NCBI GenBank assembly: GCA_014654165.1
Contig: JACWDK010000006.1
Coordinates: 1 to 59,163 of the forward strand
Source: Pelagibacterales bacterium SAG-MED13
GTDB lineage: Bacteria > Pseudomonadota > Alphaproteobacteria > Pelagibacterales > Pelagibacteraceae
Reading direction: 5' to 3'
DNA length: 59,163 nucleotides
In this document: positions 2,574 to 43,713 of the stretch, one piece after another
Position numbering within the stretch: position 1 is the stretch's first letter
Layout: every line of letters begins with the position of its first letter
The notes under the pieces: model-generated
The model's input: the letters and a program-made list of their open reading frames with translations, nothing else
Database searches by the model: none
Told to the model about the DNA's origin: nothing
Made by a program: the position numbers and the translations under genes

Positions 2574-4432
2574 TGGCTAAACATAAAACTCACATTGAAG
2601 ATTGTGATGTATTGGTAGTAGGTGGAGGTATGGCTGGAACTGGTGCTACTTTTGAAGCTAGACATTGGGGAAGAGATTTAAAAATTGTATGTGTTGAAAA
2701 AGCTAATATTGACAGAAGTGGAGCTGTTGCACAAGGCTTGTATGCTATTAATTGTTACATGGGAATGCAATGGGATGAAAATCAACCTGAAGACCATGTA
2801 AGATATGCACGTAATGATTTGATGGGTATGGTCAGAGAAGACTTAGGATATGACATGGCTCGTCATGTAGATTCAACTGTTCATATGTTTGATGAGTGGG
2901 GTCTTCCAATGATGAAAAATGAAAAAACTGGCAGATATTTAAGAGAAGGTAAATGGCAAATAATGATCCATGGTGAAAGTTATAAGCCTATTGTTGCGGA
3001 AGCTGCAAAAAAATCAGCTGATAAAATTTATAACAGAATAATGATTACTCATCTTTTAATGGATGAAGCAAAAGAAAATAGAGTAGGTGGTGCAGTTGGT
3101 TTTAATATGAGGACAGGAGATTTTCATGTGTTTAGAGCAAAAGCTGTTATTGTTGCTGCAGGTGGGGCATCTCATATTTTTAAACCAAGAGCTGTTGGAG
3201 AAGGCATGGGCAGAACTTGGTACGCTCCTTGGAGCAATGGATCTGCTTATGCATTACCAATTGCTGCAGGTGCAAAAATGACACAAATGGAAAATAGAAT
3301 TGTTCTTTGTAGATTTAAAGATGGGTATGGACCTGTTGGTGCATATTTTTTACATTTAAAAACTTATACTCAAAATGCAAATGGGGAGAATTATGAGAAG
3401 AAATGGTACGATCAAACTAAAGAGTTAGTTGGAGAGTATATTGATCATCATCCAACTCCAACTTGTTTGAGAAATCATGCTTTTATTCAAGAAACAATGG
3501 CAGGTGGTGGACCAATTCAGATGGTCACAACTGAAGCTTTCCAAGATCCTCACTTAGAAACTGTTGGATGGGAAAACTTTTTGGGAATGACTGTTGGACA
3601 AGCAGTTGTTTGGGCTTCCCAAAATATTGATCCAAAATATACAAATCCAGAATTAACTACATCAGAGCCATATGTAATGGGTTCACATGCTACTTGTTCA
3701 GGAGCATGGGTAAGTGGTCCAGAGGATTTATCACCTCCAGAATATTTCTGGGGATACAATAGAATGTTAACTATTGATGGTTTATTTGGCGCTGGTGATA
3801 CTGTTGGTGGAAGTGCACACAAATTTTCATCAGGATCATTTACGGAGGGAAGACTAGCTGCAAAAGCTGCAGTTAAATATATTGAAGATCAAAAAGCAGA
3901 TGGAATTAATATATCTGATAAACAATGTAATGATTTTAAAGCCAAAGTTTACAAGCCTCTAGAAACCTTTACTGTTGCTCAAAATGAAATTACTGGAGGA
4001 ACTGTTTCTCCAAGTTATATTTCCCCAATCCAAGGACTTCAAAGACTTCAGAGAATAATGGATGAGTATGTAGGAGGAATTGCAACAAATTATATGACTA
4101 ATGAAAATATGCTCAAAAGAGGTCTAGAATTACTTGCATGGTTAGAGGAAGATTTAGAAAAAGTTGGTGCAGAGGATTATCATCAATTGATGAGGGCATG
4201 GGAATTAAAGCACAGGGCTTTAACTTCTCAATGTGTAACTGAACATACTCTATTTAGAGAAGAAACTCGTTGGCCAGGCTATTATTACAGAGGAGACCAT
4301 ATGAAACTAGATGATGAAAATTGGCATTGTCTTACTGTTTCAAGAAGAGATCCGAAAACTGGGAAGTTTACCCTAGAAAAGATCCCTGTTTATCATATTG
4401 TAGATGAGAACGAGAAGAAAAAAGCTTCTTAA
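2573..4432 (+). CDS. aprA: adenylylsulfate reductase subunit alpha AprA
   Basis: This is a 619-residue flavoprotein of the succinate dehydrogenase/fumarate reductase type. An N-terminal FAD-binding GGGMAGTGA motif sits at about residues 17-25, followed by the AprA-typical GAVAQGLYAINCYMG stretch and a C-terminal helical domain. It binds the substrate (APS, or AMP plus sulfite) and forms a heterodimer with AprB. Length matches the family. It overlaps aprB by one base. SAR11 bacteria are known to carry aprBA although they lack assimilatory sulfate reduction, and sulfite oxidation or detoxification is the usual interpretation. No sat (ATP sulfurylase) gene lies next to it in this window. Confidence 0.96.
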   Translation: MAKHKTHIEDCDVLVVGGGMAGTGATFEARHWGRDLKIVCVEKANIDRSGAVAQGLYAINCYMGMQWDENQPEDHVRYARNDLMGMVREDLGYDMARHVDSTVHMFDEWGLPMMKNEKTGRYLREGKWQIMIHGESYKPIVAEAAKKSADKIYNRIMITHLLMDEAKENRVGGAVGFNMRTGDFHVFRAKAVIVAAGGASHIFKPRAVGEGMGRTWYAPWSNGSAYALPIAAGAKMTQMENRIVLCRFKDGYGPVGAYFLHLKTYTQNANGENYEKKWYDQTKELVGEYIDHHPTPTCLRNHAFIQETMAGGGPIQMVTTEAFQDPHLETVGWENFLGMTVGQAVVWASQNIDPKYTNPELTTSEPYVMGSHATCSGAWVSGPEDLSPPEYFWGYNRMLTIDGLFGAGDTVGGSAHKFSSGSFTEGRLAAKAAVKYIEDQKADGINISDKQCNDFKAKVYKPLETFTVAQNEITGGTVSPSYISPIQGLQRLQRIMDEYVGGIATNYMTNENMLKRGLELLAWLEEDLEKVGAEDYHQLMRAWELKHRALTSQCVTEHTLFREETRWPGYYYRGDHMKLDDENWHCLTVSRRDPKTGKFTLEKIPVYHIVDENEKKKAS

Positions 4433-29560: not shown

Positions 29561-29636
29561 GGGCGGTTAGCTCAGTTGGTAGAGCATCTCGTTTACACCG
29601 AGGGGGTCAAAGGTTCGAGTCCTTTACTGCCCACCA
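29561..29636 (+). tRNA. tRNA-Val (anticodon UAC)
   Basis: Acceptor stem GGGCGGT pairs with ACTGCCC, with discriminator A and encoded CCA. The D-arm is AGCTCAGTTGGTAGAGCA. The anticodon loop TTTACAC carries TAC at 29594-29596. The T-arm is AGGTTCGAGTCCT. It is 15 bases before tRNA-Asp, likely one transcript. Confidence 0.96.
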
Positions 29637-29651
29637 AAATGAATCAAAAGT

Positions 29652-29728
29652 GGGGGTGTAGCTCAGTTGGTTAGAGCGATCGCCTGTCACGCGATAGGTC
29701 GAGGGTTCGAGTCCCTTCACTCCCGCCA
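29652..29728 (+). tRNA. tRNA-Asp (anticodon GUC)
   Basis: Acceptor stem GGGGGTG pairs with CACTCCC, then discriminator G and encoded CCA. The anticodon loop CTGTCAC carries GTC at 29686-29688. The T-arm is GGGTTCGAGTCCC. It is the second gene of the tRNA-Val/Asp pair upstream of the nuo operon. Confidence 0.96.
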
Positions 29729-29764: not shown

Positions 29765-29781
29765 TTGATAATCATTATCAA
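29765..29781. promoter_or_regulatory. Fur-box-like palindrome in the nuo promoter region
   Basis: TTGATAATCATTATCAA is a perfect 17-base palindrome centred on C29773. Its inner 15 bases match the 7-1-7 Fur box TGATAATnATTATCA exactly. It overlaps a possible -35 (TTGATA, 29765-29770) and lies 9 bases before a possible -10 (TATATT, 29790-29795, spacing 19), so a bound repressor would block transcription of nuoA. The match is seen directly; the regulator is inferred. Confidence 0.6.
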
Positions 29782-29854
29782 ATATAGTGTATATTTTGAA
29801 TAATGTGACCTATCACCACTACATCTACCTTTAAAAAATGATATATATTCCTCA

Positions 29855-30223
29855 ATGACTGCGGATTTTTTAAAAGATTACCTACCTATAATTTTATTCC
29901 TAATAATCGCATTAGGTTTAAGTTGTGCATTTGTACTATTAAACTTTATCTTATCACCAAAAAAACCTGATCCAGAAAAATTATCTGCTTATGAATGTGG
30001 TTTTGAACCGTTTGAAGACTCAAGAATGGAGTTTGATGTGAGATTTTACTTAGTTGCAATTTTATTTATTATTTTTGATTTGGAAATAGCTTTTCTATTT
30101 CCATGGGCAATATCATTGGGCAATATTGGAATTCTTGGTTTTACATCAATGATGATTTTTTTATTCATACTTACAGTTGGTTTTATATATGAATGGAAAA
30201 AAGGTGCTTTGGACTGGGAATAA
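29855..30223 (+). CDS. nuoA: NADH-quinone oxidoreductase subunit A
   Basis: This is a 122-residue three-helix membrane subunit of complex I with the conserved [23 protein letters not shown]-type loop, seen here as [14 protein letters not shown] then [11 protein letters not shown]. The loop cysteine (ECGF) sits near the quinone site. First gene of a complete 14-gene nuo operon in standard order; its transcript probably begins near 29800, after the Fur-like palindrome. Confidence 0.96.
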
Positions 30224-30235
30224 TTAGGAATATAA

Positions 30236-30751
30236 ATGAATAATAAGTTAGATCAAGTTCCAGAAGAATTTAAACAACTAGCTGCAGATTTTAGCAAGAA
30301 TGGTTTTATAACAACTTCATTAAATAACTTGATAAATTGGTCACGATCAGGATCGTTGCATTGGATGACATTTGGACTTGCATGTTGTGCTGTTGAAATG
30401 ATGCAAACAGCGATGCCTAGATACGACCTAGAAAGATTTGGAGCTGCCCCACGAGGATCACCAAGACAATCTGATGTAATGATTGTTGCTGGAACTTTGA
30501 CAAATAAAATGGCACCAGCACTTAGAAAAGTTTATGATCAAATGCCTGAACCTAGATATGTTATATCTATGGGAAGTTGTGCTAATGGAGGTGGTTATTA
30601 CCATTATTCATATTCAGTTGTTAGAGGATGTGATAGAATAGTACCAGTAGACATTTATGTACCTGGCTGCCCACCTTCTGCTGAAGCCTTATTATCAGGA
30701 ATAATGCAACTTCAAAAAAAAATTAGAAATAAAGGATCCATAGATAGATAA
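30236..30751 (+). CDS. nuoB: NADH-quinone oxidoreductase subunit B
   Basis: This 171-residue subunit holds iron-sulfur cluster N2, the last step before quinone. The cluster ligands are Cys50 and Cys51 (LACCAVEM), Cys115 (GSCANGG) and Cys145 (VPGCPPS). It sits in the peripheral arm beside NuoD. It starts 12 bases after nuoA, and nuoC starts one base after its stop codon. Confidence 0.97.
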
Positions 30752-30752
30752 A

Positions 30753-31358
30753 ATGAAAAATTTAGTAGACTTAGAAAAAAAAATTAATTCTGAATTAACA
30801 ACTAAAATAAATAAAACAGAGATAAAATATGATCAAATTTATATTGAAATAGATAAAAATGATTTAATAGATGTAATTTTGTTTTTAAAAACAAATAAGG
30901 ATACTAAATTTAGACAGATTATTGATATTACAGTTGTTGATTATCCAGAGCGAAATCAAAGATTTAAAGTAGTTTACTTACTTTTAAGTCATGAATTTAA
31001 TCAAAGAATAATTTTGAATTTTTATATTAACGAAAATGAAGTCATAACTTCATTGACATCTATTTTTCCTGCAGCTAATTGGATGGAAAGAGAAGTATTT
31101 GATATGTATGGGGTAAATTTTAAAGATCATCCAGATTTAAGGAGAATTTTAACTGATTATGGATTTGAAGGACATCCTTTAAGAAAAGACTTTCCTTTAA
31201 CAGGTCATACAGAAGTAAGATATAGCGAGGATAAGAAAAAAGTTATTAATGAACCAGTCAAACTAGAACAAAATTATAGAAATTTTGATTACGAGAGTCC
31301 TTGGGAAGGAACCAACTATATAAAAGACCAAACAGAAAAAAATGACCAAAAAAATTAA
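30753..31358 (+). CDS. nuoC: NADH-quinone oxidoreductase subunit C
   Basis: This is the 201-residue 30-kDa-type subunit, a separate gene rather than the fused NuoCD of enterobacteria. The family signature is visible as [20 protein letters not shown] then [20 protein letters not shown]. It is a structural subunit of the peripheral arm. Its 3' end overlaps the nuoD start by 17 bases. Confidence 0.95.
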
Positions 31359-32517
31359 AAATTTGAATTTGAATTTTGGACCTCAACACCCTGCTGCGCA
31401 TGGAGTGTTAAGATTAATACTAGAATTAGATGGAGAGGTTGTTGAGAAAGCTGATCCACATATAGGTTTATTGCATCGTGGAACTGAAAAATTAATAGAA
31501 AACAAAACATATATGCAAGCAGTGCCATATTTTGATCGTCTTGATTATGTTGCCCCAATGAATCAAGAACATGCTTTTGCTTTAGCAATAGAAAAAATTT
31601 TAAAAATTGAAGTCCCAATTAGAGCACAATTAATAAGAGTAATGTTTTGTGAAATTGGAAGAATTTTAAGTCATATTTTAAATGTAACGACCCAAGCACT
31701 AGATGTTGGTGCTCTTACTCCATCTTTATGGGGGTTTGAGGAAAGAGAAACTCTAATGACTTTTTATGAAAGAGCATCTGGATCTAGACTTCATGCAAAT
31801 TATTTTAGAGCTGGAGGAGTGCATCAAGATTTACCAGCAGGACTAGAAGACGATATAGAAAAATTCTGTAAAAGTTTTCCAAAAATTATTAATGATTTAG
31901 AAAATTTATTAACAGACAATAGAATATTTAAACAAAGAAACGTAGATATAGGTATAGTCACTAAAGAGGATGCTCTAGACTATTCTTTTAGTGGAGTAAT
32001 GATTAGAGGATCAGGTATTTCATGGGATCTTAGAAAGTCTCAACCATATGATTGTTATGAACAATTAGAATTTAAAATTCCAGTTGGAAAAAATGGTGAC
32101 TGTTATGATCGTTATTTATGTAGAATAGAAGAAATGAAAGAAAGTGTGTCAATAATTAAACAATGTTTAGCTAAAATGGAAAAAGGTCCTATCAAAAGTT
32201 TAGATGGAAAAATTACACCACCATCAAAAAAAGATATTAAACAGTCAATGGAAGCATTAATTCATCATTTTAAATTATTTACCGAAGGTTACCGTGTCCC
32301 TAAAGATGAGACTTATACTGCAGTGGAAGCACCCAAAGGTGAATTTGGAGTTTATCTAATTTCAGATGGGACAAGTAAACCTTATAAATGTAAAATAAGA
32401 GCTCCTGGTTTTTCCCATTTACAATCAATGGATTATCTAATTAAAGGTCATATGTTAGCAGATGTGCCAGCTGTGCTAGGCTCTTTAGATATTGTTTTTG
32501 GAGAGGTAGATAGATGA
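31342..32517 (+). CDS. nuoD: NADH-quinone oxidoreductase subunit D
   Basis: This is the 391-residue 49-kDa-type subunit that forms the quinone pocket together with NuoB. It begins with the conserved [20 protein letters not shown] and has [14 protein letters not shown] and the C-terminal DIVFGEVDR. It lacks any metal cluster of its own, as expected. Its stop overlaps the nuoE start by 4 bases (ATGA). Confidence 0.97.
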
Positions 32518-33122
32518 GTTTAAAAAGACCAGCAAAGGATCAACCAAAAAATTTTGAATTTAATTCTTCTTCTTTACAGGCAGCAAACGCTATGGTTGCT
32601 AAATATCCAGAAGGTAAAAAACAAAGCGCTGTAATGGCATTACTTTACATTGCACAAAAACAAAATGATAACTGGATACCATTAGTAGCAATGAAATATA
32701 TCGCAAAATTTTTAGATATGCCTTACATCAAAGTTTACGAGGTAGCAACTTTCTACTCTATGTATAATTTATCGCCAGTGGGAAAATATTTTGTTCAAGT
32801 TTGTACAACTACTCCATGCATGATTAGAGGAGCAGGAAAATTAGTAGAGGCATGTAAAGAAAAAATCTCAGAAAATGAATCACAATTATCTATTGATAAA
32901 AATTGTTCTTGGGTAGAAGTTGAATGTCTAGGTGCTTGTGTCAATGCACCAATGATGCAAATTAACGATGAATATTATGAAGATCTTGACAAAAATAAAA
33001 CCTTAAAAATACTCGATAAAATTTTAAAAGGTGAGACACCAAAACCTGGCTCATATAGAGGAAGAATAAACAATGAACCCGAAAATAATAGAAAAACACT
33101 TATGGATTTAAAAAATGCTTAA
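32514..33122 (+). CDS. nuoE: NADH-quinone oxidoreductase subunit E
   Basis: This is a 202-residue thioredoxin-like subunit with the [2Fe-2S] cluster N1a. The ligands are Cys97 and Cys102 (VCTTTPCM) and Cys138 and Cys142 (CLGAC). It is part of the NADH-oxidising module with NuoF and NuoG. The tail after residue 165 is basic and poorly conserved. It overlaps nuoF by 8 bases. Confidence 0.96.
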
Positions 33123-34443
33123 AGATAAAGATAGAATTTTTCAAAATTTATATAATGATTTGGATTCAAGTATAATCTCATCTAAAAAAAGAGGTGATTG
33201 GATTAAAACTAAAGAACTCGTAGATAATGGCAGAGATTGGATAATTAATGAAATTAAAGAGTCTCAATTAAGAGGAAGAGGCGGTGCGGGTTTTCCTACT
33301 GGATTGAAATGGTCTTTTGCTCCAAAAGAAGTTGGATCGAGACCTCATTATTTAGTAATAAATGGAGATGAATCAGAACCGGGCACTTGTAAAGATAGAG
33401 ATATATTACGATTTGAACCTCATAAATTGATAGAAGGCTGCCTGTTAGCATCTTATGCTGTGCAAGCTCATGTTTGTTATATTTATATTAGAGGTGAATA
33501 TTTTATTGATGGACAAAAACTCCAAACTGCAATCGATGAAGCTTATAAAGAAAACTTAATAGGAAAAAATGCTGCAGGAACTGGATGGGATTTAGATATC
33601 TACATTCATTATGGTGCTGGTGCTTATATTTGTGGTGAAGAGACTGCTTTACTTGAAAGTATAGAGGGTAAAAAGGGTCAACCAAGATTGAAACCACCAT
33701 TTCCTGCACTAATTGGACTTTATGGATGCCCTACAATCATTAATAACGTTGAAACTATAGCTGTCGTTCCAACAATTCTTAGAAGAGGTGGTAAATGGTT
33801 TGCTTCTTTAGGTAGAGAAAAAAATACAGGTACTAAAATTTTCTGTATATCTGGAAATGTTAATAACCCATGCAATGTTGAAGAAGAGATGAACATACCA
33901 TTAAAAGAATTAATAGAATTTCATGCAGGAGGTGTAGTAGGAGGTTGGGAAAACTTACAAGCTGTAATTCCTGGAGGTTCATCAATGCCTTTAATACCTA
34001 AAGAAAAATGTGAAACATTGACTATGGATTTCGATTCATTAGTAGCTGAAAAAAGCGGATTAGGTACTGCAGGTATAGTAGTTATTAATAATGATCAAGA
34101 TATTATTAAATGTATGGCTAGAATTGCAAGATTTTATAAACATGAAAGTTGTGGGCAATGTACTCCTTGTAGAGAAGGATCAGGATGGATGTGGCGAATG
34201 CTAGAAAGAATGGCTAGAGGAGAGGCGTCAAAAGACGAAGTAGATATGTTAAGTGATGTTACAAAACAGATAGAGGGACATACCATCTGTGCTTTTGGTG
34301 AAGGTTCTTCATGGCCAGTACAAGGTTTATTAAGACATTTTAAAGATGAAATTAAAAAAAGAAATAAATTTGATCCAATTGTGAAGGAAAATAAAAATAT
34401 TCCTTATTTAGTAGATCAACACTTGTTAGATAAAAATGCTTAA
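33115..34443 (+). CDS. nuoF: NADH-quinone oxidoreductase subunit F
   Basis: This 442-residue subunit is the site of NADH oxidation. The NADH-binding motif [13 protein letters not shown] is at residues 54-66, and the FMN region is [19 protein letters not shown]. The [4Fe-4S] cluster N3 motif [12 protein letters not shown] is at about 344-355, with a fourth cysteine in HTICAFGE. Electrons pass from FMN to NuoE and NuoG. It overlaps nuoG by 8 bases. Confidence 0.97.
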
Positions 34444-36469
34444 ATTAAAAGTAAATGATAGAGAGATTGAGGTTGAAGAAGGTTTAACTGTCCTTCAAGC
34501 CTGTGAAAAAGCTGGCGTCGAAATTCCAAGGTTCTGTTATCACGAAAAATTATCAATAGCTGGTAATTGCAGGATGTGCTTGGTTGAAATGGAAAAATCT
34601 CCTAAACCTGTAGCATCGTGTGCTATGCCAGCAGCAGATGGAATGGTAATTAAAACAAATACTCCTAGTATTGAGAAATCTAGAAAAGGTATAATGGAAT
34701 TTTTATTAGCTAATCATCCCTTAGATTGTCCAGTTTGTGACCAAGGTGGTGAATGTGATCTTCAAGATCAATCAATGTTTTATGGAATAGACAAATCAAG
34801 ATTTAAGGAAAATAAAAGAGCAGTACCTGATAAAAATATGGGACCTTTAATTAAAACCCAAATGACTAGATGCATTCATTGTACCAGGTGTATTCGATTT
34901 GCAACAGAAATTGCTGGTGTCCCTGAATTAGGTGCTATTGGAAGAGGGGAAGATATGCAAATTACAACTTATCTAGAACAATCAATACAATCTGAACTTT
35001 CTGGTAATGTTATAGATCTTTGTCCAGTTGGAGCATTAACTTCCAAACCATACGTATTTGAAGCAAGACCATGGGAATTAAAAAAAACAGATACAATTGA
35101 TGTAATGGACGCTATTGGATCAAATATAAGAGTTGATACTTATGATTGGGAAGTAAAAAGGGTTTTACCTATTATCAATGACGATATTAATGAAGAGTGG
35201 ATTTCTGATAAAACAAGATATGCATGTGATGGATTATTGAATCAAAGGTTAGATAGTCCATTTATTAAATACAATAATAAGTTTGAAAAAGCTTCTTGGA
35301 CAGAAGTTTTCAAGATTATTAAGTCAAAAATAGAGAACACAAAAAATGATAAGATATGTGGATTTGTAGGAGATCTTACAAATATGGAGACAAGCTTTAT
35401 ATTTAAGGAGTTTTTTGAAAGAACTTTAAATAGCAATAATTATGAATCAAGATCATTCCAAAGTTTTTTAGATACATCAGCAAGAGAAAATTATTTGTTT
35501 AATTCTACAATCAATGGAATTGAAGAAACAGATTTAATTTTATTAATTGGAGCTAACCCAAGATTTGAGGGAACAATTCTTAATGCAAGAATAAGAAAGG
35601 CTTATATAAGTAATAAAACAAAAATTATTTCTTTGAATGATGTAGGGGATTTAAATTATCCATATCAAAATTTGGATGGAAAAACACAAACAATTAAAGA
35701 TATTTTTGAAGATAAAAATGAAATTTCAAAAAAAATATTAGATTCAAAAAAACCAATGATTATATTAGGTGAATCTTTTTTAAGATCTTATTCTGCAGAA
35801 TACCTATTTTCCTCTATAAAAAATTATTTATTGGAAAATAATAAGATCACAGAAGATTGGAATGCGTTGAATATATTATCTTCCGATGCTGCCACTGTAG
35901 GAAATCTAGATTTGGATATAATAAATCAAAAAAAAGAATTAATAAATCAACTCAATGAAAATAAATTTGATTTAGTTTATTTTCTAGGACAGGATAATTT
36001 AAGATTTGATAAAAAGAATGAATTTATAATATACCAAGGTAGTCACGGCGATAATGGAGCAGAAATAGCTGATATTATTCTTCCAGGTGCAGCGTATACT
36101 GAACAATCTGGTCATTTTACAAATTTAGAGGGTAAAATCCAGAAAGCTTATAAAGCATCATACCCTCCAGGAGATTCTAAAGAAGATTGGCAGATTATCA
36201 ATGAGCTTGCTGAGATTATGAACAATAGAAAACTATTTAATGATAAAGAAGAACTTGAAAGCAGTATGTTTAATTATTTAAATCTTAAAAAAGAAAAACA
36301 AAAAACTATTGAAATAATAAAAAATAATCAAAGTGATTTTAAAAATGAGGATTTGAAAATTAAATTTAAAGATTATTATTTTTCTAATGTAATTGCACGT
36401 TCTTCAAAAACAATGCTTAATTGCAACAATTCAAAATTGAGCATCAAACGCACTGGTACAGAGGGTTAA
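34436..36469 (+). CDS. nuoG: NADH-quinone oxidoreductase subunit G
   Basis: This 677-residue subunit carries three clusters. The [2Fe-2S] N1b ligands are Cys34, 45, 48 and 62. N5 is held by His94 with Cys98, 101 and 107. N4 is held by Cys146, 149, 152 and 196. The rest is a degenerate molybdopterin-oxidoreductase-like domain. The extra N7 cysteine motif of some bacteria was not seen. Length is typical of alphaproteobacteria. Confidence 0.96.
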
Positions 36470-36472
36470 AAA

Positions 36473-37471
36473 ATGGAATATATTAATATTATTTTTCATG
36501 AAACTTATAAGATATTATTTTTACTTGTACCAGTTCTGGTTTCTGTAGCAATGATTGTTTGGCTAGATAGAAGAGTTTGGGCATTTGTTCAAAAAAGACA
36601 AGGACCTAATGTAGTTGGCCCTTTTGGTTTGCTACAATCTTTAGCTGATGCATTAAAATATATTTTTAAAGAAATAATAATTCCTGCAAGCTCTAATAAA
36701 GTAATTTTTATTATTGCACCCATAATAACAATGACACTTGCGTTGATAGCTTGGGCAGTAATTCCTTTTGGTGAGAACAATGTTTTGTCAGATATAAATG
36801 TAGGAATATTGTATATTTTTGCTATTTCTTCTTTAGGAGTTTATGGAATAATTATGGGTGGCTGGGCTTCTAATTCTAAATACCCCTTTTTAGGAGCAAT
36901 TAGATCAGCGGCACAAATGGTTTCTTATGAAGTGTCGATTGGAATAATTATAATTAATGTTTTATTGTGTGTTGGATCGTTAAATTTAAGTGACATCGTA
37001 TTAGCTCAACAAAACATTTGGTTTATAATACCGTTATTTCCAATGTTTGTAATATTTTTTATTTCTTCTTTGGCTGAAACAAACAGACCCCCTTTCGACT
37101 TGCCCGAAGCAGAAGCTGAATTGGTTGCAGGTTATCAAACTGAATACTCTGGAATGATGTACGCAATGTTCTGGTTAGGTGAGTATGCAAATATTTTGTT
37201 AATGTGTGCATTAGGCTCTATTTTATTTTTAGGTGGATGGTTATCCCCTATAGATTTATATCCTTTTAATATTTTACCAGGAGCAATTTGGCTTATTTTT
37301 AAGATTGTTTTTTTATTTATTCTTTTTGCGTTAGTTAAGGCAGTAGTCCCAAGATACAGGTATGATCAACTTATGAGACTAGGTTGGAAAATTTTCTTGC
37401 CGTTGTCCTTGACCTATGTTGTATTGACTGCAAGTTACCTTTTTTATTTCAACCTTTTACCAGTAAATTAA
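36473..37471 (+). CDS. nuoH: NADH-quinone oxidoreductase subunit H
   Basis: This is a 332-residue membrane subunit of about eight helices that joins the arms of complex I and lines the quinone tunnel. Family motifs are [20 protein letters not shown] near residue 33 and [20 protein letters not shown], whose acidic residues are in the quinone-to-pump link. It starts 3 bases after nuoG and directly precedes nuoI. Confidence 0.97.
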
Positions 37472-37957
37472 ATGAAAATTACAAGATTTTTAAAAACTAT
37501 TTTAATGACAGACTTCATTGGTGGTTTATTTATTGCCATTAAGGAACTTTTTAAATCTAAAAAAACTATCAATTATCCCTTCGAAAAAGGAAAAATAAGC
37601 CCCAGGTATAGAGGGGAGCATGCTCTTAGAAGATATCCAAACGGAGAAGAGAGATGTATTGCATGTAAATTATGTGAGGCCGTGTGTCCTGCACAGGCCA
37701 TAACAATTGAATCAACTGAAAGAAAAGATGGTAGTAGAAAAACTACTAGATATGATATTGATATGATGAAATGTATATACTGTGGTTTATGTGAGGAGTC
37801 ATGCCCAGTAGATGCAATTGTGCAAGGTCCAAATTTTGAATTTTCTACAGAAACTAGAGAAGAACTGTATTACACTAAAGAAAAACTTCTTGATAATGGA
37901 GATAGATGGGAAAATATTTTAGCAGCGAATATCAAATCAGATAATCCTTATAGATAA
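37472..37957 (+). CDS. nuoI: NADH-quinone oxidoreductase subunit I
   Basis: This is a 161-residue ferredoxin-like subunit with two [4Fe-4S] clusters, N6a and N6b. The motifs are [11 protein letters not shown] (Cys62, 65, 68, 72) and [11 protein letters not shown] (Cys101, 104, 107, 111), with the swapped fourth cysteines expected. It links NuoG to cluster N2 in NuoB. It abuts both neighbours without a gap. Confidence 0.97.
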
Positions 37958-38593
37958 TTGATGATAGCTCACGCAATATTTTTTTATATATTCTCGCTGA
38001 TAGCCATTATATCCGCAATTATGGTTACTGTATCTAAAAATACAGTCCACTCAGTATTTTTTTTAATTTTAGATTTTATAAGTATATCGTGCCTTTTTAT
38101 CATGATAGGAGCTGAATTTCTGGGCATGATTATGTTAATCGTTTATGTGGGAGCTGTTGCGGTTTTATTTTTATTTGTTGTTATGATGTTAAATGTAGCT
38201 CAACAAAAAAACCAGTGGTTATTATCTGAAGATAGTTCGGGTCATATTCCAGTAGGACTTATTATAAGTGCTTTAATATTTTTTGAATTAATTATTGTAA
38301 TTGGCGGATGGAAGTATAAACCTAATTTATTAGAATCCACAAATCAAAATCTATCAATTGGATTAAGCAATACTCATTCTTTAGGACAAATTTTATACAC
38401 AGACTACATACATATTTTTCAAATAAGTGGGATGATTTTATTAATAGCAATGATAGGAGCTATAGTTCTTACTTTTAGACAGAGGGAAGGAGTGAAAAAA
38501 CAGAGTTATATAAAACAAATTTCCAGAGAAAGATCTGAAGGGGTTGAAGTAGTAGATGTAACTTCAAACAAAGGGGTCAAAATTGATGACTGA
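37958..38593 (+). CDS. nuoJ: NADH-quinone oxidoreductase subunit J
   Basis: This 211-residue membrane subunit has five predicted helices. The conserved pi-bulge helix [20 protein letters not shown] (about residues 53-73) is part of the proton path. A hydrophilic C-terminal tail follows the last helix. Its 3' end overlaps nuoK by 11 bases. Two ATG codons stand near the start (ATGATG); the first was used. Confidence 0.95.
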
Positions 38594-38897
38594 AATTGGT
38601 TTAGGGCATTATTTAACTTTAGGAGCAGTAATTTTCACTATTGGAATAGTTGGAATATTTTTGAATAGAAAAAATATTATTGTAATTTTAATGAGTATAG
38701 AGCTTATTTTGTTAGCGGTTAATATTAATTTAGTTTCATTCTCAATATATTTACAAGACTTAACAGGTCAAGTTTTCACTTTATTTATCTTAACTGTTGC
38801 TGCTGCTGAAGCAGCAATAGGCTTAGCAATTATAGTTGTTTACTACCGAAATTCAGGAACTATAAGAGTTGAGGAAATAGATAAATTAAAAGGTTGA
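38583..38897 (+). CDS. nuoK: NADH-quinone oxidoreductase subunit K
   Basis: This is a 104-residue three-helix membrane subunit. The two buried glutamates of the proton path lie in [15 protein letters not shown] and [17 protein letters not shown]. An ATGATG pair is present at the start as well; the second ATG (38586) is an equally possible start. It lies one base before nuoL. Confidence 0.96.
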
Positions 38898-38898
38898 T

Positions 38899-40812
38899 AT
38901 GGAAATTTCAATTATAGCGTTACCTTTAATAGCTTCAATTATATCTGGATTTTTTGGAAAATTTATAGGCGATAGAAATTCAGAAATTATTACAAGTCTA
39001 TTGGTAACAATTTCAGCAATATTATCAGCTATAGTATTATATGAAGTTGCTATTAATCAATATCAAGACAATATAATTATTGCAAAGTGGATTAGTTCAG
39101 GATCATTAGATGTTAATTGGTCTATGAAAATAGATCCTTTGTCCAGTATAATGTTAGTAGTCGTAACATCTGTTTCATCTTTAGTTCATATTTATTCTAT
39201 TGGATATATGTCTCATGATCCACACAAACCAAGATTCATGGCTTATTTGTCTCTTTTTACTTTTGCAATGTTAATGTTGGTAACCTCAGATAATTTTATT
39301 CAATTATTTTTTGGTTGGGAAGGTGTCGGTTTATGCTCGTATTTTTTAATAGGTTTCTGGTTCAAGAAAGATACGGCCAATGCTGCCGCAATTAAAGCTT
39401 TTCTAATTAATAGAGTTGGTGACTTTGGATTTGCTATAGGAATTTTTTTAATTTTTTACTTATTTGGTACAGTAAATTATTTAGAAGTTTTTGAATTAAT
39501 TCCAACTGTAGTAGATAAAAAATTAATATTTTTAGGCATTAATATAAATGCGATCGATTTAATTTGTTTACTTTTATTTATTGGCGCAATGGGAAAATCT
39601 GCACAAATTTTTCTACATACTTGGTTGCCAGATGCTATGGAGGGTCCAACACCAGTTTCTGCCCTCATACATGCTGCAACCATGGTAACTGCAGGTGTTT
39701 TTTTAGTTGTAAGATGTTCACCTATTTATGAATTTTCTGAGCTTGCATTGAATGTTATTACTATTGTAGGGATGAGCACAGCTTTCTTTGCAGCAACTGT
39801 AGCACTTGTCCAGACAGACATAAAAAAAATAATTGCATATTCAACTTGTAGTCAATTGGGGTATATGTTTTTTGCTACAGGAGTTGGTGCGTATAATGTA
39901 GCTATGTTTCATTTATTTACGCATGCTTTCTTCAAAGCTTTATTATTTTTAGGATCAGGTTCTGTTATTCATGCATTTAAGGATGAGCAAAATATAAATA
40001 AAATGGGGGGAATTTGGAAAAAATTACCCTACACATATACTTTGATGGTAATAGGAACTTTAGCTTTGACTGGTTTTCCATTTTTATCAGGATTCTATTC
40101 AAAAGATGCAATAATAGAATTCGCTTATTTAAGAGGAAATACGACTGGATACTATGCGGCTGGTATAGGTATATTGACCGCCTTTCTCACTTCAATTTAT
40201 TCATGGAGATTAATATTCAAAACTTTTCATGGCGAATATAATAACAAAGATATAAAGATCGAAGATACACATGAATCTCCATTAGTGATGTTGCTTCCTC
40301 TATTTATACTTTCTATAGGTGCAATATTTGCAGGATACTTATTCAAAGAATTATTTCTAGGTTATGGGGAATTAAATAATTTTTGGCAAGAATCAATCTT
40401 TTTTCTTAAACCTCTAAGTATTGACCACCCACCTTTTTGGTTTTTAATTTTAACTCCTATTTTGGTCATGTTATCTATTCCTATTGCTTATTATCTATTT
40501 GTAAAAAATAAAAACTTACCAGAACAAATTTCCAAAGTGAATAAACCTTTATATCAATTTTTGATAAATAAATGGTACTTCGATGAACTTTATGATGTTT
40601 TATTTGTTACGCCTTCCAAAAAAATAGGATTATTTTTATGGAAATTTTTTGATATTAAAATAATTGATGGTTTTGGCCCTGATGGTATTTCTTTATTTAT
40701 TAAGAAATGTTCGTTAAAGGCTAATAAATTTCAAAGTGGATATATATATCAATATGCATTTATAATGTTACTTGGTTTTTCTGCTTTATTAACTTTCTTG
40801 ATAGTTAGATAA
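38899..40812 (+). CDS. nuoL: NADH-quinone oxidoreductase subunit L
   Basis: This is a 637-residue antiporter-like proton-pumping subunit, the outermost of the membrane arm, with about 16 helices and the long lateral helix at the C-terminus. Key motifs are FFGWEGVGLCSYFLIGFW with the conserved glutamate, and HTWLPDAMEGPTPVSALIHA with the helix-breaking proline. Its stop overlaps the nuoM start (TAATG). Confidence 0.97.
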   Translation: MEISIIALPLIASIISGFFGKFIGDRNSEIITSLLVTISAILSAIVLYEVAINQYQDNIIIAKWISSGSLDVNWSMKIDPLSSIMLVVVTSVSSLVHIYSIGYMSHDPHKPRFMAYLSLFTFAMLMLVTSDNFIQLFFGWEGVGLCSYFLIGFWFKKDTANAAAIKAFLINRVGDFGFAIGIFLIFYLFGTVNYLEVFELIPTVVDKKLIFLGININAIDLICLLLFIGAMGKSAQIFLHTWLPDAMEGPTPVSALIHAATMVTAGVFLVVRCSPIYEFSELALNVITIVGMSTAFFAATVALVQTDIKKIIAYSTCSQLGYMFFATGVGAYNVAMFHLFTHAFFKALLFLGSGSVIHAFKDEQNINKMGGIWKKLPYTYTLMVIGTLALTGFPFLSGFYSKDAIIEFAYLRGNTTGYYAAGIGILTAFLTSIYSWRLIFKTFHGEYNNKDIKIEDTHESPLVMLLPLFILSIGAIFAGYLFKELFLGYGELNNFWQESIFFLKPLSIDHPPFWFLILTPILVMLSIPIAYYLFVKNKNLPEQISKVNKPLYQFLINKWYFDELYDVLFVTPSKKIGLFLWKFFDIKIIDGFGPDGISLFIKKCSLKANKFQSGYIYQYAFIMLLGFSALLTFLIVR

Positions 40813-42293
40813 TGAATTTCCCTATACTTTCCTCTTTAATCTTATTACCTTCGATAGGAGCTCTTTTTCTTTTTTTTTCAAGAAGTAATAAAGAAAATAA
40901 TATAACTGTAAAATACGTTGCTTTGTTTACTTCATTAGTAAATTTTTTTTTATCTATTTATTTATGGATATTGTTTGATCAATCAACATCAGATTTTCAA
41001 TTTGTTGAAGATAGAATTTGGATTGAAGGTCTCATCAATTATAAAGTGGGCATTGATGGTATATCAATATTATTTATAATTTTAACAACATTTATAACTC
41101 CACTATGTATAATTTCAGTTAATAATTCTATTAAAAATAGACTCAATGAATTTCTTATTGCTATTTTAGTAATGGAGTCTTTTATGATTGGAGTTTTCTG
41201 TTCATTAGATCTTGTAGTTTTTTATTTATTTTTTGAAGCAGGATTAATTCCAATGTTTTTAATCATTGGAATATGGGGAGGCACTAGAAGAGTTTATTCA
41301 GCTTTTAAATTTTTTTTATTTACACTTTTAGGATCAGTCTTAATGTTAGTAGCTATAATTTCTATATATTGGATTTCGGGTACCACTGATGTAATTGAAC
41401 TTTATCAACAAGGGATTGACTCAAAATATCAAAATCTTCTATGGCTCGCATTCTTTAGTTCTTTTGCAGTCAAAACTCCAATGTGGCCAGTTCATACTTG
41501 GTTACCAGATGCTCATGTAGAAGCACCAACGGCGGGTTCTGTTCTTTTAGCTGCAATTTTACTTAAAATGGCAGGATATGGATTTATAAGATTTTCATTA
41601 GGTTTATTCCCTGTCGCATCAGAAATTTTCACTCCATTAATTTATACTTTAAGTGTCATAGCTATTATTTTCACCTCTTTTATTGCTTTAATGCAAGAGG
41701 ATATGAAAAAATTAATTGCATATTCCTCTGTTGCACATATGGGTTTTGTAACTTTGGGAATTTTTACAATTCAACAACAAGGGTTAGAGGGAAGTATTTT
41801 ACAAATGATAAGCCATGGATTAGTTGCAGCAGCACTTTTTTTATGTGTAGGAGTTGTATATGATAGAATGCATTCTAGATTAATAGATACATATGGTGGT
41901 ATTGTGAGTATTATTCCAAAATATTCAGTTTTCTTTATGATATTTACATTGGCAGCTTTAGGATTACCAGGAACAAGTGGATTTGTAGGTGAGTTTTTAA
42001 TTTTGATGGGTGCATTTAAAGACAATTTTTTAGTGGCAGTTATTGCCAGTTTAGGAGTGATAATAGGAGCGGCATATATGCTTTGGTTATACAAGCGAGT
42101 CGTTTTTGGAAAATTGATTAATTCAGATTTAAAACAAATGGTAGACCTTAATAGATCTGAATTGTTTATTTTATCTTGCTTAGCAGTTCCAATTTTATTA
42201 TTTGGATTTTATCCAGATCCATTAATTAATACGATTGAAGTTTCTATTAGTGATTTAATAGACACCTATAATATTAATACTATGAATAATTAA
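40812..42293 (+). CDS. nuoM: NADH-quinone oxidoreductase subunit M
   Basis: This is a 493-residue antiporter-like proton-pumping subunit with about 14 helices. Key motifs are FEAGLIPMFLIIGIWGG with the pump glutamate, and HTWLPDAHVEAPTAGSVLLA. It has one base between its stop and nuoN. Confidence 0.97.
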   Translation: MNFPILSSLILLPSIGALFLFFSRSNKENNITVKYVALFTSLVNFFLSIYLWILFDQSTSDFQFVEDRIWIEGLINYKVGIDGISILFIILTTFITPLCIISVNNSIKNRLNEFLIAILVMESFMIGVFCSLDLVVFYLFFEAGLIPMFLIIGIWGGTRRVYSAFKFFLFTLLGSVLMLVAIISIYWISGTTDVIELYQQGIDSKYQNLLWLAFFSSFAVKTPMWPVHTWLPDAHVEAPTAGSVLLAAILLKMAGYGFIRFSLGLFPVASEIFTPLIYTLSVIAIIFTSFIALMQEDMKKLIAYSSVAHMGFVTLGIFTIQQQGLEGSILQMISHGLVAAALFLCVGVVYDRMHSRLIDTYGGIVSIIPKYSVFFMIFTLAALGLPGTSGFVGEFLILMGAFKDNFLVAVIASLGVIIGAAYMLWLYKRVVFGKLINSDLKQMVDLNRSELFILSCLAVPILLFGFYPDPLINTIEVSISDLIDTYNINTMNN

Positions 42294-42294
42294 G

Positions 42295-43713
42295 ATGATA
42301 AATTTAGAGCTAGTTTTTCCTGAAATTTTTCTTTCTTTATCAATTATGTTTTTGCTAATTTTAGGAGTTTTCAAAAAGAATAGCTCTGTATTAATTCATA
42401 ATCTATCATTAATTGTTTTATTAGTTACAGCTGTAATTACTATAAATGAAACCTTAGGTATTGAAGAAACATTTTTGTTTAATGGTAGTATTGTAATCGA
42501 TTATTTATCATCTTTTATGAAAATAATGACTTTAATTGCAGCATTTTTAGTTTTAGTAATTTCATCAAATTATTTAAAAGCATTTAAGATTTTTAAAATT
42601 GAGTATCCAATTTTAATTTTAAGTTCTGTATTAGGAATGATGGTAATGATTAGTTCTAACGATTTAATTGTTTTTTATATGGGATTAGAGCTTCAATCAT
42701 TAGCATTATATGTTTTAGCCACATTTAATAGAGATCAACTTAAATCTTCTGAAGCTGGATTAAAATATTTTGTTTTGAGTGCCTTATCTTCAGGTCTTTT
42801 ACTTTACGGATGTTCTCTAATATACGGATTTACTGGTGCAACAAATTTTATTTTAATTGCTGATCAACTAGGTTCAAATGAATATGCATTAACTTTTGGA
42901 ATTGTTTTTATTTTAGTTGGATTAGCATTTAAAATTTCAGCCGTTCCATTTCACATGTGGGCTCCTGATGTTTATGAAGGATCACCAACATCTGTAACTT
43001 TATTTTTTACAATGGTTCCTAAAATTGCAGCTCTTAGTGTTTTTATCAGATTTTTATATGTCCCTTTCTTAAATTTAATTGAACAGTGGCAAATGATTTT
43101 AGTTTTTTTATCTATCGCTTCCATGCTCTTTGGTGCAATTGCTGCTATTGGACAAACTAATCTAAAAAGACTTATAGCTTACAGTTCAATAAGTCATGTC
43201 GGTTATGCTCTCGCTGGACTAGCTACATCTTCAAATGATGGTATCCAGAGCTCTGTTATTTATATAACTATATATATAATAATGAATCTTGGTTTATTTT
43301 CTTGTTTATTGATGATGAGAAGAAATAATGAATATTATGAGGATATTAATGATTTATCTGGATTATCAAAAAATCATCCACTTTTATCGATATCACTGTT
43401 AGTAATTTTATTTTCTTTAGCAGGCATTCCACCATTAGCAGGTTTTTTTGCTAAATTTTATATTTTTAAATCTGTTCTTGAACAATCTATGTATTTTTTA
43501 GCTATCGTAGGCTTATTATCAACAGTTGTAGCTGCATTTTACTATTTAAGAATAATAAAGATTATGTATTTTGATAAAGAAAAAGAAAAATTTGACACTG
43601 ATCACAGTATGTGGCTAAAATTTTCACTAACTGCATCTACATTATTAATTCTAATATACTTCATATTTCCTAGTCAATTAATAGAAGTTGTTTCGAGGAT
43701 TAATATTATTTAA
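42295..43713 (+). CDS. nuoN: NADH-quinone oxidoreductase subunit N
   Basis: This is a 472-residue antiporter-like proton-pumping subunit with about 14 helices. Key motifs are FYMGLELQSLALYVLATF and FHMWAPDVYEGSPTSVTLFF. It is the last gene of the nuo operon, but its stop overlaps the birA start by one base, so the transcript must continue into the housekeeping genes behind it. Confidence 0.96.
   Translation: MINLELVFPEIFLSLSIMFLLILGVFKKNSSVLIHNLSLIVLLVTAVITINETLGIEETFLFNGSIVIDYLSSFMKIMTLIAAFLVLVISSNYLKAFKIFKIEYPILILSSVLGMMVMISSNDLIVFYMGLELQSLALYVLATFNRDQLKSSEAGLKYFVLSALSSGLLLYGCSLIYGFTGATNFILIADQLGSNEYALTFGIVFILVGLAFKISAVPFHMWAPDVYEGSPTSVTLFFTMVPKIAALSVFIRFLYVPFLNLIEQWQMILVFLSIASMLFGAIAAIGQTNLKRLIAYSSISHVGYALAGLATSSNDGIQSSVIYITIYIIMNLGLFSCLLMMRRNNEYYEDINDLSGLSKNHPLLSISLLVILFSLAGIPPLAGFFAKFYIFKSVLEQSMYFLAIVGLLSTVVAAFYYLRIIKIMYFDKEKEKFDTDHSMWLKFSLTASTLLILIYFIFPSQLIEVVSRINII

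Follow-up and report, generated by a model that had tools for sequence, protein, structure and literature searches.

A conserved Fur-box palindrome upstream of nuoA-N in SAR11, a possible iron-dependent switch on complex I

Upstream of the complex I operon nuoA-N of Pelagibacterales bacterium SAG-MED13, we found a 17-nt perfect palindrome, TTGATAATCATTATCAA, in the gap between tRNA-Asp and nuoA (29765–29781, + strand) of the window, i.e., the whole 59,163-nt stretch of contig JACWDK010000006.1 that was analysed. We favor the reading, with some reserve, that this palindrome is a SAR11 Fur operator from which iron-loaded Fur activates nuoA-N, acting from ~80 bp upstream. Binding of Fur to the palindrome is itself very probable, because the site is conserved among relatives, varies in the manner of Fur boxes, and matches the boxes upstream of sfuC, and because a Fur ortholog is encoded in the genome.

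The palindrome and its conservation upstream of nuoA

The features around the palindrome are given below with their coordinates in the window.

29561–29636, + strand: tRNA-Val (tac), the neighbour on the upstream side (ARAGORN, Rfam tRNA)
29652–29728, + strand: tRNA-Asp (gtc), which adjoins the box upstream in most relatives (ARAGORN, Rfam)
29765–29781, + strand: predicted 7-1-7 Fur box TTGATAATCATTATCAA, with its conserved core at 29766–29780 (TGATAATCATTATCA)
29790–29795, + strand: possible secondary −10, TATATT, in the window's sub-lineage only (spacer alignment)
29805–29819, + strand: conserved promoter-proximal element GTGACCTATCACCAC (GTGAC-nTAn-...-CAC), at about −50 to −35
29839–29847, + strand: inferred extended −10, TGaTATATA, mostly 37 nt from GTGAC in relatives, those with the ~100-nt longer leader included
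29855–30223, + strand: nuoA, first gene of the complex I operon (NCBIfam NuoA models, ORF)
30236–43713, + strand: remainder of the nuo operon, nuoB-nuoN (NCBIfam profiles and ORFs)

Among the nuo genes, nuoA-I and nuoN were identified by NCBIfam profile, and nuoJ-M from gene order only. As an earlier, sequence-only reading had claimed, the palindrome in the tRNA-Asp/nuoA gap is perfect and fits the 7-1-7 Fur consensus at all fixed positions: it matches TGATAATnATTATCA at 15/15 positions, the free centre included. Neither the window nor the 1.01-Mb genome (86% complete) contains another zero-mismatch copy, and the runner-up matches in the genome carry 2 mismatches.

The conservation in relatives on which that reading depended was also found. 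Allowing at most one departure, TGAKAAYNRTTMTCA occurs in 95 of 186 distinct SAR11 nuoA upstream regions, compared with 0.2 expected from dinucleotide shuffles, and it occurs exactly in 74 of the 186 (0.0 in shuffles); these counts come from related genomes, many of them single-cell assemblies, and do not represent independent events. The 17-mer itself is matched with ≤2 mismatches in 25/56 SAR11 nuoA upstream regions and with ≤3 mismatches in 35/56, versus 0.04 and 0.4, respectively, in dinucleotide shuffles. Permuted palindromes of equal composition averaged 0.15 loci among the 56 upstream regions, and the single permuted palindrome that reached 25 loci was the motif itself redrawn. The excess of boxes over the shuffled expectation argues that the palindrome is functional rather than a chance occurrence.

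Promoter geometry and direction of control

Downstream of the box lies a conserved promoter module (GTGAC-N8-CAC ... TGaTATATA; 29805–29847). GTGAC is present in 146/186 nuoA upstream regions, together with a conserved TA at +6/+7 and C.C at +12/+14, and the −10 hexamer TATATA (29842–29847) ends seven bases ahead of the nuoA ATG; the leader is therefore predicted to be very short or absent. Transcription likely starts at ~29853–29855, and the box centre would then probably lie near −82 relative to this predicted main start. The sequence-only reading had set the box between plausible −35 and −10 elements of the nuoA-N operon. For the main nuo promoter this is probably not its position, since the conserved module is downstream and relatives show no conservation over the 25 nt preceding the box, the would-be −35 region. 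A generic sigma-70 scan around the box was near background (10 sites vs 6.8 expected). The GTGACnTAn...CAC element (29805–29819) is among the most conserved non-coding stretches here; we rejected it as a genome-wide regulator site, as it has one good match in the genome, at nuo.

The spacing of the box among relatives ties it to this promoter. Box and GTGAC are separated by 14, 23, 35–37, or 47 nt, with no intermediate values. This gap is constant within lineages, even where the spacer is <50% identical, whereas the tRNA-Asp 3' end can be as near to the box as 2 nt or as far as 37 nt. In relatives whose leader is extended by ~100 nt, the position of the box follows the promoter and not the gene. 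Because the promoter gap is fixed, the tRNA-Asp gap is variable, and the place is kept with the longer leader, the box most likely belongs to the nuo promoter, upstream of it. The gaps of 14, 23, 36, and 47 nt resemble an ~11-bp ladder (p ~0.09 by a hand estimate for ~four independent architectures), so helical phasing of the box is only suggestive. Close relatives (L027, L030, L041, L053, L056, L067, and L081) have a mixture of two nuo leader types, a short one and one that is ~100 nt longer, which gives the impression that recombination has swapped the promoter region.

Fur control of nuo has been described in other bacteria. In Caulobacter crescentus, nuoA-N is bound and activated by Fur (da Silva Neto 2009, as cited in PMC6120978 and PMC11475020), and nuo expression is reported to drop when iron is limiting and when fur is mutated (PMC6120978, PMC11475020; microarray, PMC3751524). 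In Neisseria meningitidis, the boxes of the Fur-activated genes nuoA, norB, and pan1 lie ~100 bp ahead of the transcription start (Delany 2004, as cited in PMC3788343). A Fur box overlapping the promoter mediates repression, whereas one ~100 bp ahead of the start, as in these Neisseria genes, mediates activation (PMC3788343). A fur box has also been predicted upstream of nuoA-N in Gluconacetobacter diazotrophicus (PMC9368920), like SAR11 an alphaproteobacterium with a box before nuo, although that prediction comes without a position relative to the promoter. Caulobacter resembles SAR11 in being an alphaproteobacterium with nuo as the target operon and a Fur site in the nuo regulatory region; the SAR11 operator differs in being a predicted one, in a genome with a much smaller set of strict boxes (three loci), and in being lost in many lineages. 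Neisseria shares nuoA as a target and, given the predicted SAR11 start, a box outside the core promoter, but it is a betaproteobacterium with experimental proof, while the SAR11 box centre, at approximately −73 to −106, is placed by inference.

The sequence-only reading had held that direct Fur control of nuo is not known as a standard feature of alphaproteobacteria. This premise of novelty fails, because direct Fur activation of nuo has been published for the alphaproteobacterium Caulobacter (and also for Neisseria). What is new here is the nuo box of SAR11, its patchy loss, and the fact that published Fur-box surveys of SAR11 do not include this box; the literature searched, with subscription papers outside its scope, yielded no report of a Fur box at SAR11 nuo.

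Based on the upstream position of the box and the Caulobacter and Neisseria precedents, we propose activation by Fur, which, given Fur binding, is the probable direction of control. In iron-replete cells, iron-loaded Fur would occupy the palindrome ~80 bp upstream of the main nuo start and would most likely switch nuoA-N transcription on. When iron is low, Fur would leave the site and complex I synthesis would drop, which would spare iron for other uses. The sequence-only reading had proposed that Fur-type control of nuo saves iron and had left the direction unsaid; its Fur operator is supported, with iron saving as the natural reading, and iron saving requires activation by iron-loaded Fur, a direction that the upstream position suggests.

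Repression of nuo by Fur, with nuo going up when iron is scarce, is unlikely. Fur would in that case block a second promoter with its −10 at TATATT (29790–29795) and its −35 inside the box. The −10-like TGTATATTTTG just 3' of the box is common to most of the window's sub-lineage, in which a second promoter under the box is possible, and the sfuC boxes of the same genome overlap their promoter region in the manner of repressor sites. However, the −10-like element is found in that sub-lineage only, and the 36-nt-gap class, L048, L204, and L047 all keep the box without having this element. More complex I under iron scarcity would also make little physiological sense, and the Fur control of nuo known so far is activation.

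Fur might instead sit downstream of tRNA-Asp as a roadblock or boundary against tRNA read-through into nuo, given that the box begins only 2–8 nt past the tRNA-Asp 3' end in many relatives. We consider this improbable in view of the variable tRNA distance and fixed promoter distance described above, and two loci (L064 and L228) keep the box without an adjoining tRNA-Asp.

The probable regulator and its other sites

The genome encodes three FUR-family proteins, namely a Fur, a Zur-like protein, and an Irr-like protein encoded next to katG, so the sequence-only reading's supposition of a Fur-family regulator is borne out. The Fur gene (G000:C1:103273-103647, minus strand) encodes a protein that matches PF01475 at 1.4e-38 and keeps both the SIATVYRTV recognition-helix region and the HHDH metal-ligand motif. 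Its best match is the NCBIfam Fur model, yet it scores below the equivalog cut-off (99.9 vs 146 bits). The nearest solved chains are the Rhizobium (5fd5/5fd6) and Magnetospirillum (4ray/4rb1) Fur proteins, and the nearest relatives of this Fur include rhizobial Fur/Mur.

The nuo boxes follow the substitution pattern TGA[T/G]AA[T/C]n[A/G]TT[A/C/T]TCA with free flanks, tolerating T/G at position 5 and C/A/T at position 13, in a profile that is biased toward the consensus because the box was defined by similarity. Fur boxes show this same pattern. The genome scan proposed with the sequence-only reading also located the motif ahead of a known iron gene: a tandem pair, 16 bp apart, lies over the promoter region of sfuC, an iron-transporter gene whose product is the periplasmic Fe(III)-binding protein. 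These tandem boxes recur in 22/22 relatives with an identified sfuC, some of which have no nuo box. The strict motif occurs at three loci only in the genome (nuo, sfuC with its two boxes, and C1:84824); sdh and acnA are not among these strict-motif loci.

Several minor sites were also observed. The strict box at C1:84824 (L249:1501-1515; G000:C1:84824-84838) is 42 nt upstream of a small, unlisted Cys-rich ORF (..NCKKCGLTISSTCSKCNKVVDVEVLDDGCIVQKTKCLDCANVPVLKDICSQQK) on the minus strand, and it is not clearly conserved among the few relatives checked. A Fur-like box with one departure (L008:1501-1517; G000:C45:44476) precedes the iscR-suf operon by ~108 nt; this operon also has a TTGACTATTTTAGTCAGG...TATATA promoter, which has the appearance of IscR control. 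Between the irr-like gene and katG is TTTATAATGATTCTAAA (L017:1372-1388, near G000:C1:88033), which is more like an Irr/PerR-type site than a Fur box. Loose matches (2–3 mismatches) were rejected as a wider regulon: they are mostly inside genes, at 55 places vs 31 in the control, i.e., ~2x.

A site for another regulator, whether of the FNR/CRP type (TTGAT...ATCAA), Irr, Zur, or IscR, is very improbable. The outer bases of the palindrome do read TTGAT...ATCAA, and the genome encodes Irr-like, Zur-like, and IscR proteins; however, the motif is that of the sfuC Fur boxes and is unlike the Irr/PerR-type TTTATAATGATTCTAAA. The half-sites are spaced by 7 bp here, not by the 4 bp of FNR/CRP (TTGAT-N4-ATCAA), and the CRP/FNR-type HTH (PF13545) had no match in the 86% complete genome, with the control detected in 14/14. 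An FNR/CRP site was thus rejected based on the spacing of 7 and the lack of a PF13545 regulator among the proteins found.

A role at the RNA level, in which the palindrome would serve the tRNA transcript as a terminator or processing hairpin, is scarcely credible: any perfect palindrome folds into a hairpin by construction, but this one has no T run 3' of it, folding of the region is not above shuffles (z −0.67), and because changes at positions 5/13 are one-sided (27/56 distinct sites changed, 1 of them on both sides; 29/56 paired), stem pairing is not kept. Only tRNAs reached threshold in an Rfam scan of the region. A phage-derived element was rejected, as phage matches are confined to the tRNA.

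Distribution of the box among SAR11 lineages

In the NuoA-D tree, the deepest split of the Pelagibacteraceae part has boxed groups on either side, and the presence and absence of the box require a minimum of nine changes of state. We read this as old presence followed by repeated loss, although the change count alone fits gain or loss equally. Within the 186-upstream set, g5 and g6 have the box in 10/10 sampled upstream regions and g1 has it in part of them, and it was not found in g2, g4, g7, or family f2; g3 gave one 3-mismatch match only, which is not convincing. Around half of the SAR11 genomes lack the nuo box and most of these nonetheless encode Fur, which indicates that the box is dispensable. 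Loss of Fur was therefore rejected as the cause of box loss, and the box-less genomes that were checked also keep their sfuC boxes. The box is absent from two complete SAR11 genomes, which we take to be HTCC1062 and HTCC7211; it has thus apparently been lost in these laboratory strains too. Altogether, we suggest tentatively, as a reading somewhat less probable than its alternatives combined, that an ancestral Fur iron-sparing switch on nuo with a helically phased site is polymorphic in SAR11, kept by about half of the lineages and lost in others, including cultured model strains.

A 2016 survey of SAR11 placed Fur boxes always before iron transporters, namely Fe3+ ABC transporters and FTR1 permeases, and scored HTCC7211 as having no Fur boxes (PMC4771312). 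Those boxes have the same 7-1-7 motif and the same Fur as here, and our analysis confirms the ones at sfuC. The nuo box is not mentioned there; it would correct this picture of boxes before iron transporters only. A 2011 study found HTCC1062 to be without a classic Fur box and only guessed at an energy regulon (PMC3090418). Under iron limitation of HTCC1062, sfuC was the most iron-responsive transcript (16-fold up) and suf was up ~2-fold, while the array did not list nuo (PMC2864753), in a strain that apparently has no nuo box.

SAR11 are among the most numerous cells in the ocean and have very few regulators. If Fur activation of nuo is correct, a direct iron switch on the largest iron consumer of these cells would couple their respiration to the supply of iron in the ocean. 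Some SAR11 populations, but not others, would then adjust their main respiratory enzyme to iron, with patchy box loss predicting which lineages respond. If our identification of HTCC1062 and HTCC7211 is right, the usual laboratory strains cannot be used to test control of nuo and may lack the switch.

A separate observation concerns the nuoA leader of g5 and g6, which is ~45 nt long and has the form TTAATATAAGAATC[CCTCAA...TTGAGG]TAGATATT with a 6-bp stem (L065, about 2959–3000; L063, L066–L070, L078, L080, L219, and L223–L231). Rfam gave no match at the two loci scanned. All cells of the stem (100%) are paired, with both-sided changes in 4/6 pairs, and we consider this leader a candidate cis-acting RNA for nuo.
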